A stretch of DNA of 25,196 nucleotides from Bacteroidota bacterium. GTDB taxonomy: Bacteria; Bacteroidota; Bacteroidia; Sphingobacteriales; Sphingobacteriaceae. Below, in pieces: positions 9,422 to 24,149 of this stretch (position 1 is its first letter; every line of letters starts with the position of its first letter). The notes under the pieces were generated by a model that saw only the letters and a list, made by a program, of their open reading frames with translations, ran no database searches and had not been told where the DNA came from. The stretch covers positions 1 through 25,196 of the forward strand of contig JABDBT010000024.1 in the NCBI GenBank assembly GCA_013288465.1. Reading direction: 5' to 3'. The translations under genes and the position numbers were made by a program.

Positions 9422-10816
9422 ATGTATGCAATTGTTGATATTGAAACTACGGGCGGGCATGCCAGTGCCAACGGGATAACCGAAATTGCTATTTGCATAC
9501 ATGATGGCAATGCGGTAGTTAAACGCTACCAAACCCTGGTAAACCCCCATAAAGAAATTCCTATTTACATACAGGCGTTAACCGGTATCAGCAATGATAT
9601 GGTTCAAAATGCGCCTTCATTTGGGCAGGTGGCGCATGAAATTTACCAATTGCTTAACGGGCAAATATTTGTAGCACATAATGTAAACTTTGACTACTCA
9701 TTTGTGCGCTATCATTTAGGTATTGCCGGGTACGAGCTGCAAAGCAATAAGTTATGCACCGTAAGGCTGGGCCGTAAAATATTGCCCGGCCTGCCATCAT
9801 ACAGCCTGGGTAAACTATGCAGGCACCTGGGCATTGAAAACGATAGCAGGCACCGGGCGGCTGGTGATGCCAGCGCCACAGCCACGCTGTTTACGCTGTT
9901 GCTGCAAAGTGACAAGGATAACCATATTAAAGCTGCACTGAAAGTAACCTCGAAAGAGCAGGTATTACCACCTCATTTGCCAAAAGCTACGATAGTAAAT
10001 TTACCGTCAACGCCGGGCGTATATTATTTTCATGACGACAAAGGCAAGGTTATTTATGTAGGTAAGGCCAAGAATATAAAAAAACGTGTTTGCAGCCATT
10101 TTACGGGCAATAACCCTGGCTTGCAACGACAGGAATTTCTGCGCAATATTTACCAGGTTACCCACCAGGTATGCGGCACCGAACTGGTGGCGTTTGTGCT
10201 GGAAGCCATTGAGATCAAACGCCTTTGGCCAAAATATAACCGGTCGTTAAAGCGGTTTGAACATGCTTATGGCTTATATATATTTGAAGACCAGCGGGGT
10301 TACCTGCGCCTGGCGGTTGATAAATACCGAAAACATAACCAAACCATTTATACCTGCAACTCATTACTGGAAGGTTATAACCTGTTAAACCACTTAATTG
10401 AAACGTTTGGGCTTTGTCCTAAGCTATGTTTTATACAAACCAATAATCAGCCTTGCGTAAACGGCAAAGAGAGCGGCTGCGCCTGCACAGGGCATGTTAG
10501 CGTTGATGATTATAACAAAAAGGTAAATTACGCGCTGGATGAACTAAAAGATGCCCTGCCCACCTTTGCTATCAGCGATGCAGGCCGCACGCATGACGAA
10601 CATAGCTGTATCCTTATTGAAAAAGGAAAGTTTTACGGCATGGGCTACATTGCCGATGATGCCGAAGCCAACAACCTGCACCAGCTTAAAACCTATTTAA
10701 CGCCCTATCCCGGCAATGACTATATTAAAACGATGGTGAGTAACTACGCGGCGAAGTTTCCCGAACGGAAAGTGGTGTTTGTTGAAGAATCCGAAAAAAC
10801 TTACGAAGTTTCGTAA
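9422..10816 (+). CDS. DEDDh exonuclease fused to a GIY-YIG (UvrC/Cho-like) nuclease
   Basis: 464 residues in two nuclease modules. Residues 1-165 form a DnaQ/epsilon-like 3'-5' exonuclease: ExoI with Asp6 and Glu8 (IVDIETTGG), ExoII with Asp91 (HNVNFDYSF), and ExoIII with His144 and Asp149 (HRAAGDAS). Residues 190-275 form a UvrC-type GIY-YIG domain: GVYYF at 199-203, YVGKAKNIKKRV with Arg222, and Glu261 in VLEAIEIKRLWPKYN. A cysteine cluster follows at Cys332, 336, 345, 353 and 355, as in Cho/UvrC relatives. Such fusions are known in Bacteroidota and actinobacteria and are thought to act in DNA repair by incision near damage followed by trimming; the exact role here is inferred. All catalytic residues are present. 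A candidate TACATTTA element ends only 6 bp before the ATG, so the message may have almost no leader. Confidence 0.9.
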   Translation: MYAIVDIETTGGHASANGITEIAICIHDGNAVVKRYQTLVNPHKEIPIYIQALTGISNDMVQNAPSFGQVAHEIYQLLNGQIFVAHNVNFDYSFVRYHLGIAGYELQSNKLCTVRLGRKILPGLPSYSLGKLCRHLGIENDSRHRAAGDASATATLFTLLLQSDKDNHIKAALKVTSKEQVLPPHLPKATIVNLPSTPGVYYFHDDKGKVIYVGKAKNIKKRVCSHFTGNNPGLQRQEFLRNIYQVTHQVCGTELVAFVLEAIEIKRLWPKYNRSLKRFEHAYGLYIFEDQRGYLRLAVDKYRKHNQTIYTCNSLLEGYNLLNHLIETFGLCPKLCFIQTNNQPCVNGKESGCACTGHVSVDDYNKKVNYALDELKDALPTFAISDAGRTHDEHSCILIEKGKFYGMGYIADDAEANNLHQLKTYLTPYPGNDYIKTMVSNYAAKFPERKVVFVEESEKTYEVS

Positions 10817-17920: not shown

Positions 17921-20900
17921 TCAATTACTACTATCATCCGCCACTTCCTTCAGTTCATCTCCTTTTTTGCTTTTGCCTAAGTGGACTTTTGGGTTATCCT
18001 GCGTTCCGGTAATATGCATAGGTATGCCTATAATACCCAATGGGGGCAGGCCAAGCCTGAAATCGAGGTTAATAGCTTTGTCAAAGCTTACCTGTCCGCC
18101 AAACCTTACCCTGAAGCCTGCCACCCGTATTTTGGTTTGCTCAATGGTAATGATATTATGCGCTATAGTACTTTTAATAGCTATTTGCGATACGCCGGGG
18201 TTATTGGCAATACTATCATGTTTGGTTTGGCTGCCAACCGCGTTAAGCAGTTTAAATCCATGCATCTTAAGTTCCTTGGCCGATAGGGTGCCGCCGCCGT
18301 TCAAAGTAGAATATACCGGCATCATATTGCTGTTAAGCTGCCCACCTAATTTATAATCTAACGAAACCAGGCCCTCGGCATGGCCTGCAGCGGTGGCCAT
18401 ATCATGAAATAGCTTAATACCGTTGTAGGCTTTTTTAATGTCAAAATCTTTAGCGCTGATATGGTAATTAAAAAATGCTTTTTTAGGGTTGATACTGGTA
18501 TAATCGGCATCCATGTTTACCGGCGCGCCAATTAGGTTAAACCCGGTTTGTTTTAAAGTAATGGTGCCATTATGAATGCCCATTTGCCCTTTTGAATCAT
18601 TAATGACCAGCCCATTGTATTTTACTTTTTTAACATCGGCGGCAAAATTCATGTCGAGGTTTTTTGGAACCATAACTACGCCCGATGATTTCGTGCTTTT
18701 GCCCGATGGCGCGGCGCTTGCAAATACCATAAAATCATCAATAGTTAGCTGATCGCTGGTTAGGTTAAAATCGCCTTTTAAGGCCGACCCCGGTTTCATC
18801 GCGTAGTCAATTACATTAGCTAATGCGCCATTCAAGATAATTTGCGAACTGCCATAAGTAGCAGTAAACGTATCAAACTGCATCTTATCCTGGTTAAAGC
18901 TAAAAACACCTTTATTTATGACGAACGGTTTTGGAAACAATTCAGAGGTAAGTGAGATATTATTTACCTTAAAGGTGCCCGAGTTGACCAACTGGTCGTA
19001 GCGCCCCGCCTGCACATCGCTTTGTTTCCCTTTTACAGCTAAATTGGCCGCTATCGTCCCATTAACGTTATAGCCTTTTATGGCAAATACCCGGTAAATT
19101 TTACCCAGGTTTATAGTGCCGTTGGCGGTTATATTATACGCAAGGTCGTTAAAGTTGACCAATTGAGCTTTCAGCAAAAAAGGTTCGCCTTCAAACTCAA
19201 ACGATATGGGTTTTATAAAAACCTTTAACCCTGCCAGTGAAGCGGTATTATTGGTGATACTGGTGTTAACCTGTATTTTCTTGATAGCATGAGGGTAATA
19301 TTTTGTTTTTACCGACCCATTTAGCAGGCTTACATTGGCCGTAATTACCGGGAATTTCTTTTTGCCGGGCAGGTATTTGCCTTTAGCTTTAACATCGGCG
19401 TTCAGGTCGCCTTTCAGGTCGATGCTGTCAATAGGGTAAAATTGTTTCAGATCGGCGAAATGAAATTTTGCCTGCAGGTGGGCATCAATCGGGAAATCGG
19501 CCATATTACCCATTTTAAAATAACCTTTAATATAATTATTTAACGCGTAAGCTTCCATATTATCAACTGCAAGGCTAATGTGTTTGTAATTATTATCGGG
19601 GCAGCTGGCAACCATATTAAAGCTGATACGGTTAACCGCCTGCGGCAACGAAGCGTATTTAAAATAACCATCTTTAAATGACGACTGCACCGTAAACCTG
19701 GGTATGCTGGTAATTACAGTATCAATCTTCTTTCGTAACCCTACCCGTTTTATCGCGGTAGCGTACCTGCCTTGTGCTAATAGGTGCAGCGCATAGCGGC
19801 CTTTAATGCTGAAAGGTTTAATACCTAAAGCCTTGCTCCATTGTTCAAGATCTATCTCTGTGTTTACCTTGGCATAAATATCGGGCTGTTTTACACCTTT
19901 AACCTTAATTACCGAACTAAAATGATCTTTACCAATATTAAAATAGCTCGAATCAATGCTCACATACAAACTATCGGGGTTAAGGCCCGGGAGTTTGGTT
20001 TGAAAATCGAGGTACAAATTGCGTATTGGCTCCGGTGTTTTACCATTGGCGATAACGCCGTTGCGCACCTTTAGGCTCATGGTCAAATTGGGCTTTAAAT
20101 TGTCTTTAACCACATATTTACCTGTAAGGGCCATCTGGATATGCCCGTCGCCGTCAACCTCGGTATTATCCATTAGTTTTTGGTATGATGCAGGCAGGGC
20201 GGTAATAATATCGCCCAGGTCGCTTTGGTGCGAGTCTATTTTAAAATCCATATCATAACCGTCCTTAATAAACGCGAACCGGCCCGTAAACTGCACGGGC
20301 AACTGGTTAATAAGCAGGTCGTTTTTCTGAAAAATAAAGGCCAATGATTTGGTATTGATCTTAGTTACCAGATCGGCGTTTACTTTTTTAGATAGGATAT
20401 AGGGTTGCCTGCCATAATAAAAATCAAGCGATTGGATCTCGGTATGGGTATGCAGGTCAAAAATATCCTGGCTCAAATCGCCGCTGCCGGTATAATTAAA
20501 CCCGCGGGCGTTAATTTTCATGGGTAACGACTCGTCATTGTAAACCAACCGGCTGTTTTGCACCAATATCTGGTCGATACCCAATGAGGCCTGGGTCGTA
20601 TCATTTTTGGCCCCGGTTTTCGGCTGACCGGGCTTGTAAACGTTATAATTTGCCCTGCCGGTACTATCCACCTGTATATTAATAAAGGCCTGGTTAAGGT
20701 ATATTTTGTTGATGTTTATTTTGCTTTTTAATAAGGAAGTAAGGTCAATGCCCAGCGAAATTTCTTTAGCAGCCATTAAGGTGTCTTTTTCAAAAGGCGC
20801 GCTGCCTTTTAAGTCAACATCATATAACGTAAGCGTAAGCGCCGGGAAATGTTTGAAAAACGAAAGGCCTGTGCTGCTAAATGAAATATGGCCGTTGATG

Positions 20901-21046
20901 CTGCCATTTGCCCAGCTATTTATTTTTTTGGTGAATGTTTGCGGGAAAAGAAAGGGTAGTAAAAACATAAGGATAAGCAGGCTGCCCAGGGTGATGCCAC
21001 TTATTTTAAGTGTTTTGAATAATATTCTTTTTATAGGGAACGGCAT
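17921..21046 (-). CDS. AsmA-like envelope protein
   Basis: 1041 residues from the ATG at 21046. I prefer this start to the upstream in-frame TTG (21073), because a TAAGTTTG promoter element overlaps that TTG. One N-terminal membrane helix (about 14-34) is followed by a very long beta-strand-rich region. Near the N-terminus is SFSSTGLSFFKHFPALTLTL, typical of AsmA. Near the C-terminus lies the AsmA_2-type block (GLPPLGIIGIPMHITGTQDNPKVHLGK). AsmA-like proteins (AsmA, YhdP, TamB) are anchored in the inner membrane, span the periplasm and are implicated in lipid transit to, or homeostasis of, the outer membrane. Here the gene diverges from a DedA-glycosyltransferase fusion and an Omp85 barrel, which supports an envelope-lipid role (inference). 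The tail is charged (KKGDELKEVADDSSN). Confidence 0.88.
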   Translation of the reverse strand: MPFPIKRILFKTLKISGITLGSLLILMFLLPFLFPQTFTKKINSWANGSINGHISFSSTGLSFFKHFPALTLTLYDVDLKGSAPFEKDTLMAAKEISLGIDLTSLLKSKININKIYLNQAFINIQVDSTGRANYNVYKPGQPKTGAKNDTTQASLGIDQILVQNSRLVYNDESLPMKINARGFNYTGSGDLSQDIFDLHTHTEIQSLDFYYGRQPYILSKKVNADLVTKINTKSLAFIFQKNDLLINQLPVQFTGRFAFIKDGYDMDFKIDSHQSDLGDIITALPASYQKLMDNTEVDGDGHIQMALTGKYVVKDNLKPNLTMSLKVRNGVIANGKTPEPIRNLYLDFQTKLPGLNPDSLYVSIDSSYFNIGKDHFSSVIKVKGVKQPDIYAKVNTEIDLEQWSKALGIKPFSIKGRYALHLLAQGRYATAIKRVGLRKKIDTVITSIPRFTVQSSFKDGYFKYASLPQAVNRISFNMVASCPDNNYKHISLAVDNMEAYALNNYIKGYFKMGNMADFPIDAHLQAKFHFADLKQFYPIDSIDLKGDLNADVKAKGKYLPGKKKFPVITANVSLLNGSVKTKYYPHAIKKIQVNTSITNNTASLAGLKVFIKPISFEFEGEPFLLKAQLVNFNDLAYNITANGTINLGKIYRVFAIKGYNVNGTIAANLAVKGKQSDVQAGRYDQLVNSGTFKVNNISLTSELFPKPFVINKGVFSFNQDKMQFDTFTATYGSSQIILNGALANVIDYAMKPGSALKGDFNLTSDQLTIDDFMVFASAAPSGKSTKSSGVVMVPKNLDMNFAADVKKVKYNGLVINDSKGQMGIHNGTITLKQTGFNLIGAPVNMDADYTSINPKKAFFNYHISAKDFDIKKAYNGIKLFHDMATAAGHAEGLVSLDYKLGGQLNSNMMPVYSTLNGGGTLSAKELKMHGFKLLNAVGSQTKHDSIANNPGVSQIAIKSTIAHNIITIEQTKIRVAGFRVRFGGQVSFDKAINLDFRLGLPPLGIIGIPMHITGTQDNPKVHLGKSKKGDELKEVADDSSN

Positions 21047-21070
21047 ATATAATAAGGTTGATTTATATAT

Positions 21071-21078
21071 CAAACTTA
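21071..21078 (-). promoter_or_regulatory. Candidate -7 promoter element for the AsmA-like gene
   Basis: On the minus strand this is TAAGTTTG, an exact TAnnTTTG match lying 25 bp before the ATG at 21046. It overlaps the alternative upstream TTG start, which argues that translation begins at 21046. The -33 region is weak. Confidence 0.5.
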
Positions 21079-21240: not shown

Positions 21241-22911
21241 ATGCCGCATGATGCAATAGAATATATTAATCATTATGGTTATGCGGCCATATTCGTACTG
21301 GTTTTTTTACAGGAAATAGGTGTACCTAATCCCGTTCCAAATGAATTAGTGCTGATGTTCTCGGGCTACCTTACCTCTACCGGCGCATTATCTTTATTAG
21401 CTGTACTGATCACCGCTATAGTTGCCGATGCTTTAGGCGCAACTATTTTGTATATAACCTTTTATTTTTTTGGAGGATATATTTTAAGCCATAAACCTAA
21501 ATGGTTGCCGCTACCTATGGCTAAAATTGACCGCTTATCGGTAAAAGTATCATCAGGCGGAGGGTTAATCTCTATTTTTTTAGGCAGGATAACACCTTTC
21601 ATCAGGGGCTATATTTCGGTTATTTCGGGCCTGCTTAAAATTAAACCCGGTAAATATTTGCCCCTTATTTTAATAACAGCCATAATGGTATCGGGTGCCT
21701 ATATAATGGCAGGCAGGTTACTTGGCCCATACTGGACCGGGGTTGCGGGCAACCTTTCGAAAATAAAATACATCGCACTGGCAATAGCACTATTAATAGC
21801 GATTTATATCGTGATCGCTAATTTGAATAAAAAGCGTAAGAACGAATTAACATTTAATGCAAACAGTTTAAACGGCTATCATCATCCGTTAACAATACAC
21901 ATGGTATCAGAAACCGAATATGTTACAAAAGGCCAGGGGGTACATACCGCGTTTTTAGAACTGATAGAATTGCTGCGCGAAAAGAACGATGTTAAAGTGA
22001 TAATTAATAATGAAGGCAGGGGCGATGTATTCCACTCGCATACTTATGGGCCTTATTATTTTTGGAAAGGGAGGGGTTATAAAGGCCGCCGCATACACAC
22101 GGTACACGTAATTCCGGATTCTATCAAAGGGTCGCTGCCCATGTGGAAGTACCTGTTGCCCGTAGCCAAAGCTTATTTTAAAATGGCTTTCTCATACGCT
22201 GATGTGCTTATCGCGTTATCGCCCATGGTTGAAGACGCGATAAGGGATTTAGATGTAAAAACACCGATAGTTAAAATATATAATCCGGTTTTACTTGAAC
22301 ATTGGAAACGTACCCCAAAAAACCGGGAAAGGGGCAGGCAATTGCTCGGCGTAAGCGAACATGACATTGTAGTTTTGGGTGTAGGCCAATTACAGGAAAG
22401 AAAAGGCGTGGAAGATTTTGTTGATATCGGCGAAGCTATCCCAAATGCTAAATTTGTTTGGGTAGGCGGCAGGCCATTCGGCATATTTACCGAAGGTATT
22501 AACAGGATAAATGAAAAAATTGTAAAGGCTCCGGCTAATATTCAGTTTGCGGGCATGTTCGACCTGTCAAATATGCCCGCAATTTATGCGGCGGCTGATG
22601 TTTTTTTATTTCCATCGTACCAGGAAAACTGCCCCCTTGCCCCATTAGAGGCTGCTGCCTGTGGGTTGCCTGTTATCTATCGTGATATAAAAGAATATGC
22701 CTTATTATATGATGATTATTATTTGAATGCGGGTAATACTTCCGAGTTCATTACGCTAACAAAAAGATTGATCGACGATGCTGCTTTTTACGCCGAAGCT
22801 GAAAAAATTTCGGACAAACTGGTACAACAATTTGACAAAAACATAATCAGGGCTAAATTGATTGATTTATATACCCGCGTATTTAACGAGGCTAATATGA
22901 AAAGTAATTGA
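21241..22911 (+). CDS. DedA (VTT/SNARE-associated) membrane domain fused to a GT4 glycosyltransferase
   Basis: 556 residues in one uninterrupted frame. Residues 1-195 are a DedA-family membrane domain: FLQEIGVPNPVPNEL (Glu25, Glu35), FSGYL, then FLGRITPFIRGY with the conserved Arg116 and Arg122 and ISG, plus further membrane helices to about 193. A short basic linker (NKKRKNE) leads to a GT-B/GT4 glycosyltransferase at about 215-545: a GVHTAFLEL acceptor-side segment, VLGVGQLQERKGVEDFVD, FVWVGG, and the EX7E motif with Glu462 and Glu470 (ENCPLAPLEAAACGLPVI). DedA proteins are linked to undecaprenyl-phosphate and phospholipid translocation, and GT4 includes lipid glucosyltransferases. The inferred role is making, and possibly moving, a glycolipid or lipid-linked sugar. 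The GT part would face the cytoplasm. It is translationally coupled to the Omp85 gene. Confidence 0.88.
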   Translation: MPHDAIEYINHYGYAAIFVLVFLQEIGVPNPVPNELVLMFSGYLTSTGALSLLAVLITAIVADALGATILYITFYFFGGYILSHKPKWLPLPMAKIDRLSVKVSSGGGLISIFLGRITPFIRGYISVISGLLKIKPGKYLPLILITAIMVSGAYIMAGRLLGPYWTGVAGNLSKIKYIALAIALLIAIYIVIANLNKKRKNELTFNANSLNGYHHPLTIHMVSETEYVTKGQGVHTAFLELIELLREKNDVKVIINNEGRGDVFHSHTYGPYYFWKGRGYKGRRIHTVHVIPDSIKGSLPMWKYLLPVAKAYFKMAFSYADVLIALSPMVEDAIRDLDVKTPIVKIYNPVLLEHWKRTPKNRERGRQLLGVSEHDIVVLGVGQLQERKGVEDFVDIGEAIPNAKFVWVGGRPFGIFTEGINRINEKIVKAPANIQFAGMFDLSNMPAIYAAADVFLFPSYQENCPLAPLEAAACGLPVIYRDIKEYALLYDDYYLNAGNTSEFITLTKRLIDDAAFYAEAEKISDKLVQQFDKNIIRAKLIDLYTRVFNEANMKSN

Positions 22912-24149
22912 AAGCTTTTACATTGATAATAATTGCGGTTCTTTATTCGTTGGAAGGATTCTCCCAAACAGACTCATTACGCTTAAAACAGAAAAACACC
23001 GATAATATAATCCTTGAGCAGTCATTTATTGACTCTTCCAAACAAAAAGACGTTGGCGACCTGATTAGCAAAATTTTCACTAAAAAAGCATCTTCAACTA
23101 AAACGCAGCCGACTAAAAAGCTAAGTATCTCTGTTATACCTTCGGCAGGATATACACTAACAACCGGGTTTGCGGCGGATTTAACCGGGAACGGTGCATT
23201 TTTTACCACCAGTGACCATCATGAAAACCTGTCGGTTGTTGATGGCGACCTTTCCTACGATGTAAAACTTCAAAAAATATTTGTTTCCCGGTCAGAGATT
23301 TGGACAAATAATAACAGCTATAAAATTACCTCAGATATACGGTGGCAGGAATTTCCCGAAGATACTTATGGCATAGGTACCACGACGTTACCTGCTAATG
23401 CCGATCCTTTGTTGTTTTTTTACACTAAGGTTTATGCAACCCTGTACAAAAAGATAGTTCCGGACGCTGATTATTATTTAGGGTTGGGGTATAACCTTGA
23501 TCATCATTATAATATTAAAGAAACCGGTATTCAAAGTAAAATGACGACCGATTTTAAAACCTATGGCGGCGCTGCTGCAACAACGTCGTCGGGCGTTAAC
23601 ATTAATTTTTTATATGATAGCCGCAAAAACACCATTAATGCGCTTAATGGTATTTATGCCAATATAACCTATACTCAAAACCTTATTTGGCTATGCAGTA
23701 ATTCAAATTGGGAACAGCTTCAGCTCGATTTCAGGAAGTACATCAAAGTATCGCAGCGCTCAAATAATGTGTTGGCGTTATGGAGCTTTGTTTGGTTAAC
23801 CAAGGGCAACCCGCCCTATCTTGATCTGCCCTATACCGGCGGTGATACTTTTAACAATACCGGCAGGGGATATATACAAGGCCGGTTTACGGGGCGCGAT
23901 ATGCTTTATATAGAAAGCGAATACCGGTTTGGCATAACCCCTAATGGTTTAATAGGCGGCGTATTATTTGCCAACGCCGAAAGCTTAACCGAGCTTAAAA
24001 CTAACGCGTTTGAAACCGTAGCCCCGGGAGCGGGGGCAGGATTGCGTATCAAAGTAAATAAGCATTCAAACACCAATGTGAGCATTGATTATGGGTTTGG
24101 CATACATGGCTCACATGGTTTTTTTGTTAATTTGGGAGAGGTTTTTTAG
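22908..24149 (+). CDS. POTRA-less Omp85/BamA-superfamily outer-membrane barrel (surface antigen D15-like)
   Basis: 413 residues. The start is TTG within a 4-bp TTGA overlap with the DedA-GT stop; TAA is the preceding in-frame codon and no ATG is near. A TTG start yields a good signal peptide (KAFTLIIIAVLYSLEGFSQ). A short Ser/Thr/Lys linker (about 25-75) is followed directly by the Bac_surface_Ag-type barrel, with SVIPSAGYTLTTGFA, FLYDSRKNTINALNGIYANITY, and a terminal strand GFFVNLGEVF ending in Phe as the BAM signal. There is no room for POTRA domains. Some short Omp85 members act without POTRA domains; their substrates are mostly unknown. The coupling to a DedA-glycosyltransferase and the divergent AsmA-like gene suggest a role in delivering or using an envelope lipid, which is inference. 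Confidence 0.85.
   Translation: MKAFTLIIIAVLYSLEGFSQTDSLRLKQKNTDNIILEQSFIDSSKQKDVGDLISKIFTKKASSTKTQPTKKLSISVIPSAGYTLTTGFAADLTGNGAFFTTSDHHENLSVVDGDLSYDVKLQKIFVSRSEIWTNNNSYKITSDIRWQEFPEDTYGIGTTTLPANADPLLFFYTKVYATLYKKIVPDADYYLGLGYNLDHHYNIKETGIQSKMTTDFKTYGGAAATTSSGVNINFLYDSRKNTINALNGIYANITYTQNLIWLCSNSNWEQLQLDFRKYIKVSQRSNNVLALWSFVWLTKGNPPYLDLPYTGGDTFNNTGRGYIQGRFTGRDMLYIESEYRFGITPNGLIGGVLFANAESLTELKTNAFETVAPGAGAGLRIKVNKHSNTNVSIDYGFGIHGSHGFFVNLGEVF

Follow-up and report, generated by a model that had tools for sequence, protein, structure and literature searches.

A recurrent fusion of a DedA-type membrane domain to a GT4 glycosyltransferase: a candidate glycolipid synthase-translocase in Bacteroidota

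Introduction

Can a single bacterial protein both make a sugar-bearing membrane lipid and carry it across the membrane? The question is raised by a gene in a 25,196-nucleotide stretch of DNA from a Mucilaginibacter-related member of the Sphingobacteriaceae (Bacteroidota; assembly GCA_013288465.1, contig JABDBT010000024.1, positions 1 to 25,196), hereafter called the window. At 21241..22911 of the + strand, stop codon included, a single intact frame with an ATG start encodes 556 amino acids, in which a membrane domain of the VTT/DedA family precedes a glycosyltransferase (GT) of family GT4. By what route glycolipids synthesized on the cytoplasmic face get to the outer leaflet is an open question; for C. 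difficile it was stated in 2025 that whether several glycolipids arrive there, and by which flippases, is unknown (PMC11898633). A DedA protein linked or fused to a glycolipid-type GT4 enzyme is a testable candidate for this step. We propose tentatively, with a confidence that stops short of an even chance, that the fusion is a bifunctional membrane glycolipid synthase-translocase; the coupling of VTT and GT as such is well supported.

Results

The initial annotation had described, in one frame, a complete DedA/VTT domain with the motif GRITPFIRG and a complete GT4 enzyme with an EX7E motif, and both Pfam and the motifs agree with this description. The VTT domain (21241..21735, + strand like all parts of the gene; residues 1-165) matches VTT_dom (PF09335) over residues 32-159 with 40.3 bits, against a gathering cut-off of 33.9. 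In its models, with a mean predicted local distance difference test (pLDDT) score of 91.2, the helix order is consistent with the expected repeat, in which an amphipathic helix, a re-entrant loop and a membrane helix follow each other twice. The domain is followed by the last membrane helix and a linker (21736..21888, residues 166-216), low in identity and mostly helical in the predicted model, and then by the GT domain (21889..22908, residues 217-556), which is supported by Pfam, NCBIfam and the predicted structure. Its membership in GT4 is based on GT4 Pfam domains scoring above their gathering cut-offs (Glyco_transf_4, residues 254-351; Glycos_transf_1, 364-485; Glyco_trans_1_4, 377-513), on the EX7E catalytic pair E462/E470 (22624..22650) and on the GT-B fold. 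No solved relative of the DedA half was found by sequence up to an E-value of 0.1; when the VTT model was compared with solved structures, Foldseek gave no match under an E-value of 0.001, and VIA was likewise without a clear match. No MprF domain was among the six Pfam families matched in the fusion protein at E-values up to 0.01.

Two protein searches, by which the recurrence of the architecture raised in the initial annotation could be counted, rule out an assembly artefact or a frameshift as its origin. VTT and GT4 stand in one protein in 24 of the 120 matches listed out of 1211 in the first search, and the second, with 25 of the 120 listed out of 1119, recovers those 24 and adds protein P0124; the window protein is included each time. 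The fused proteins come from varied sources (NCBI, JGI, ENA and others), and one of them, P0024, sits in a contig of 4,293,963 bp from Dyadobacter sp. CECT 9275. A fusion seen in one assembly only, with its halves separate elsewhere, or a frameshift between residues 195 and 220 had been named as grounds for doubt. The halves are indeed separate genes in many relatives; the fusion is not confined to one assembly, being present in 6 of the 62 genome loci described below, and nothing at residues 195-220 points to a frameshift, as 24 protein clusters share the join, with 53-61 residues between positions 165 and 219, and P0124 shares it too. Searching with only the VTT part missed the fused proteins P0012-P0024, so that this search is no census; it gave 12 proteins, 11 of them VTT-GT4 fusions. 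The twelfth, P0121 (340 residues, on a 1.4-kb contig), joins this VTT class to DUF3047, a single example and possibly an artefact.

In an alignment of 24 fused proteins, mean pairwise identity reaches 57% in the VTT domain and 65% in the GT domain, against 21% across the last helix and linker, and E25, E35, D63, R116, R122, E462 and E470 are invariant in all 24. Both halves are therefore taken to be under constraint, and both domains look active, as far as residue conservation can tell; P0124, outside this alignment, carries the same motifs by eye. E25 and E35 bound the first re-entrant motif (residues 25-35, 21313..21345) and are also kept in all 34 VTT proteins of a second alignment. R116 and R122 belong to the second re-entrant motif, GRITPFIRG (residues 115-123, 21583..21609); among the same 34 proteins R116 is found in all and R122 in 33, with a lysine in its place at locus L018. 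The two arginines align with R130 and R136 of YqjA, are invariant in all 18 rows of that alignment, and are essential in YqjA (PMC7818093); their equivalents in UptA, R112 and R118, matter for the binding of C55-P (undecaprenyl phosphate; PMC11474028). Of the essential acidic residues of YqjA, D51 aligns with E35, acidic but another residue, and E39 aligns with Q24, one column off E25, its match to E25 resting on the E-x-G motif by eye.

The association of the two halves extends beyond the fused genes. When 84,980 species genomes were scanned with two peptide patterns of the GT, 66 loci emerged, and 62 remained for counts and trees once L061, L064, L065 and L066, with an incomplete GT, had been dropped. 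Of these, 32 show linkage of VTT and GT: six are fused, 22 adjacent in the order VTT-GT, two adjacent in the order GT-VTT and two one gene apart, and the remaining 30 have GT without VTT in the fetched DNA. In both loci with an intervening gene (L030 and L042) that gene encodes an Omp85-type outer-membrane barrel, and the VTT gene of L042 is in opposite orientation. Besides the GT/VTT cluster, no neighbour family exceeds 9 of the 66 loci. For 26 of the 30 VTT-less loci (25 genomes) a search found no close VTT elsewhere in the genome, the best match scoring 44 bits and most of these genomes being metagenome assemblies, maybe incomplete; close VTTs turned up only in the six genomes included for an already known linked VTT. 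Among 301 genomes of the Mucilaginibacter arboris family, GT occurs in four (one a fragment) and a close VTT in three, always on the contig of the GT; two of these three were known from the pattern scan, one being the centre of the draw, and G045 is new.

The GT trees were built by a quick method, and their support values are modest evidence; for the second, seven loci were left out (duplicates, near-duplicates and long branches), and 12 helix-anchored proteins, which keep a membrane helix and have no VTT core, were put in together with 7 GT-only proteins, both being selections from many such matches. In this second tree a clade of 48 rows (99% support) takes in 27 of the 29 fused rows. P0124 groups with loci of GT-VTT or separated order (100% support), and a single fusion for all, with P0124 inside the main clade, was rejected (approximately unbiased test, p = 0.0004), with the caveats that this group was named after the tree had been seen and that P0124 has a long branch and is known from a 1.8-kb contig. 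Placing P0013 in one fused clade was not rejected (p = 0.138 and 0.429 in two tests); P0013 may be a third fusion. These trees suggest at least two VTT-GT4 fusions. L008, inside the main clade, has VTT and GT as overlapping genes and is apparently a fusion that has split again. VTT-less GT relatives in assemblies titled FCPU426, Acetothermia and Goldiibacteriota (L031, L040, L049, L053 and L057) form a clade with L027, reflecting either transfer between phyla or misbinned contigs.

Discussion

Joint production and movement of a sugar-bearing membrane lipid by the two halves is probable, since many relatives carry them as neighbouring genes. The cytoplasmic GT4 half would transfer a hexose from a nucleotide sugar onto a membrane lipid of the inner leaflet, the most likely reaction being the addition of a second sugar to a monohexosyl-diacylglycerol-like lipid. 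The VTT half, joined to it by the helical linker, would then carry the glycolipid over the inner membrane, or it might scramble lipids so that the product does not accumulate in one leaflet. We infer an N-out/C-in topology, the sugar donor, the acceptor, and the substrate and direction of VTT; linker residues 194-216 hold four K+R and one D+E. The initial annotation had suggested synthesis and movement of a glycolipid or lipid-linked sugar. Complete domains and a recurrent pair speak for it, and glycolipid is the better of its two terms because the top NCBIfam matches of the GT half are glycolipid synthases; that VTT moves the product of the GT is a prediction. Among the 25 of 29 NCBIfam families listed, IagA/BgsA (NF053513) ranks first with 140.3 bits over profile positions 3-332 of 333, the processive diacylglycerol glucosyltransferase Dgs (NF049987) second with 125.4 bits, and the following family scores 63 bits; both alignments cover nearly the full length of the models.

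Several known systems make this arrangement plausible. Glucosyl-diacylglycerol receives its second sugar from enzymes of the IagA/BgsA/Dgs kind (PMC11898633, PMC3901891). Within this group of second-step diacylglycerol glycosyltransferases (LafB, BgsA, IagA, CpoA and Dgs), the GT half spans the IagA/BgsA and Dgs models far under the equivalog cut-offs, and it differs from the group in being found here in Bacteroidota and in being fused to VTT. In Listeria, one operon encodes LafA, LafB and the membrane protein LafC, whose action is proposed to follow that of both GTs (PMC2764115). MprF, an aminoacyl-phosphatidylglycerol synthase/flippase, unites a synthase and a lipid translocator in one protein, and its transport domain has been reported fused to glycosyltransferases (PMC11980842). 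Here too a predicted soluble lipid-modifying enzyme is joined to a putative membrane lipid translocator in a single protein; the membrane family and the enzyme are different, and the fusion is predicted to transfer a sugar, MprF an amino acid, so that the resemblance is one of arrangement only. Following the logic of MprF, the Laf operon and the IagA/BgsA-like GT, we interpret the fusion as a glycolipid synthase that carries its own translocator. The window protein shares with UptA and PetA the VTT domain and the arginines of the re-entrant loops, and differs from them in being fused to an enzyme. DedA-PAP2 fusions (PMC9876793) and DedA fusions to an MprF synthase (cited in PMC11980842) are likewise combinations of DedA/VTT with a lipid-acting enzyme, the partner here being GT4. 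The initial annotation knew of no described function for a VTT-GT4 combination, in agreement with the open-licence literature, where titles and abstract openings gave no description of a DedA/VTT-glycosyltransferase fusion; nothing was found in open-licence literature on a Bacteroides alpha-galactosylceramide synthase either (ceramide was also considered as the acceptor), and papers listed for Mucilaginibacter glycolipids added nothing. Analogous synthase-translocase fusions are already in print. With enzyme and translocator tethered, the fusion would allow each to be mutated on its own and, if the reading is true, would point to a substrate for one branch of the DedA family, for which few substrates are known.

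Several observations, given in this and the next two paragraphs together with the alternatives on which they bear, count against a glycolipid synthase-translocase. The GT half misses by far the cut-offs of IagA/BgsA (140.3 of the 460 bits needed) and Dgs (125.4 of 500), as does the VTT half those of its top NCBIfam matches, the UptA models NF052604 (52.6 of 250 bits) and NF052605 (57.1 of 300). With scores so far under the cut-offs, neither the UptA nor the IagA/BgsA name should be transferred to the protein. The first-step glucosyl-diacylglycerol synthase Mgs (NF049988) gave matches below its cut-off in all 10 genomes and 14 controls and none above it, and is uninformative. The mutual placement of the domains is unsure in the model (predicted template modelling score, pTM, 0.68), and residues 158-178, outside in the proposed topology, also hold three basic residues. 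One alternative is carrier recycling, in which VTT, acting like UptA, returns undecaprenyl phosphate to the inner leaflet and supplies this carrier to a GT4 half that uses a polyprenyl-linked acceptor. We consider it unlikely in view of the low UptA scores and of the best matches of the GT half, which are diacylglycerol glycolipid synthases; moreover, no set of undecaprenyl phosphate pathway genes was spotted by eye in the open reading frame list of the window, although no search was aimed at one.

A strict need for both halves is countered by the 30 GT-only loci among the 62 and by four helix-anchored loci. At those 30, some of them near contig ends, the fetched DNA holds no VTT, so the GT can probably work alone. 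Because VTT is dispensable in some lineages, its contribution would be an accessory step after or beside synthesis and not part of catalysis. In the class of genome G010, a Chitinophagales assembly (presumably class Bacteroidia, 395 genomes), 12 genomes carry this VTT class and 3 the GT, a single genome carrying both, which rules out a VTT exclusive to its GT4 partner. One of the 12 has GT4 2.8 kb from VTT; in six (L102, L103, L104, L106, L108 and L109), all from one order represented by 11 genomes, VTT abuts an unrelated GT of the PF13528/MJ1255 type, an arrangement that speaks for the synthase-translocase; and in five no relative of either GT lies within about 1.5 kb. The VTT class is present in 8 of 11 genomes of the order of G412 and in 1 of 7 of that of G345, orders too small for a larger census. 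As a control, which also speaks for the synthase-translocase, the 39 neighbours of 20 ordinary DedA genes, taken from the genomes of the genome-wide VTT search (L091 was excluded, being a remnant itself), included no relative of either GT by profiles made for this analysis, and no glycosyltransferase was among the 25 of 64 Pfam families listed; about seven of the 20 share one neighbourhood (pyrophosphatase, antiporter) and are thus not all independent. Tight linkage without strict dependence would suit a helper role, as in a second alternative where VTT, like PetA, moves bulk phospholipid to balance the leaflets while the GT makes a glycolipid that is not itself carried. DedA members have been proposed to move phosphatidylethanolamine (PetA, cited in PMC11474028), and VMP1 and TMEM41B have been reported as scramblases (cited in PMC11980842). 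Against this, bulk scrambling would hardly call for covalent coupling, and the ordinary control DedA genes do not lie beside relatives of these GTs; we hold this alternative to be distinctly unlikely. If the glycolipid synthase-translocase is retained, one might speculate, doubtful as it is, that it forms a DedA-built counterpart of MprF: a glycolipid-translocase class of VTT, teaming with at least two unrelated GT families (GT4 and the MJ1255-type PF13528) and fused to GT4 at least twice, would lead, within a single protein, from nucleotide sugar to outer-leaflet glycolipid, which is perhaps passed on to the outer membrane.

Finally, four loci in the mostly fused clade (L013, L016, L020 and L022) lack the VTT core and keep a membrane helix. 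The N-terminus of L013 (MPVPNK...) resembles a VTT re-entrant loop by eye, L020 retains about 42 N-terminal residues at 36% identity, and Pfam finds no VTT in either. Between the fused and anchored states, 43 rows require seven changes, the anchored forms being dispersed through the fused clade. The sixteen anchored rows as one clade were rejected; 12 of them are known as proteins only, with their upstream DNA unseen, and P0122 may be a truncated gene call. This distribution in the trees suggests that the VTT core was later lost more than once while the helix stayed. The third alternative, that the VTT half merely tethers the GT, its transport lost or irrelevant, would suit these loci, which lack the core in the gene, nearby and at close identity in the genome, and further helix-anchored proteins among the protein-search matches (upstream DNA likewise unseen), but it is very unlikely given a VTT domain 57% identical with E25, E35, D63, R116 and R122 invariant, against 21% for the linker, and given that one helix is evidently enough elsewhere, so that a whole transporter-like fold would hardly be kept for tethering alone.

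Neighbouring genes and other observations

Downstream on the + strand, an Omp85-type outer-membrane barrel gene (22908..24149), whose mechanically assigned TTG start overlaps the stop of the fusion gene, is a possible operon partner. A gene of this family comes after the GT in L030, L042 and L059, and in L101 one faces VTT; 29 of 43 genomes contain the family, frequently more than once, so that its link to GT and VTT is suggestive only and the idea of a dedicated third partner is weakened. Genome G010 has two GT copies without VTT, L021 and L059, the second overlapping an Omp85 gene by one base.

A GT of the PF13528/MJ1255 type lies near GT4 at L018 (7716-8840, with an adjoining metallophosphatase) and L050 (772-1923), Pfam having been run on L018 only; this proximity hints at a possible shared pathway for the two GTs. 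At L105, L106 and L107, in three genomes of one order, VTT genes of this class stand in tandem pairs.

Just upstream of the fusion gene, on the opposite strand, the window encodes a large AsmA-family protein (17921-21073); proteins of the AsmA type are believed to transport lipids to the outer membrane. Farther upstream, at 9422-10816, a single frame holds what we take, by eye, to be an exonuclease-like N-terminus followed by a GIY-YIG-like nuclease.
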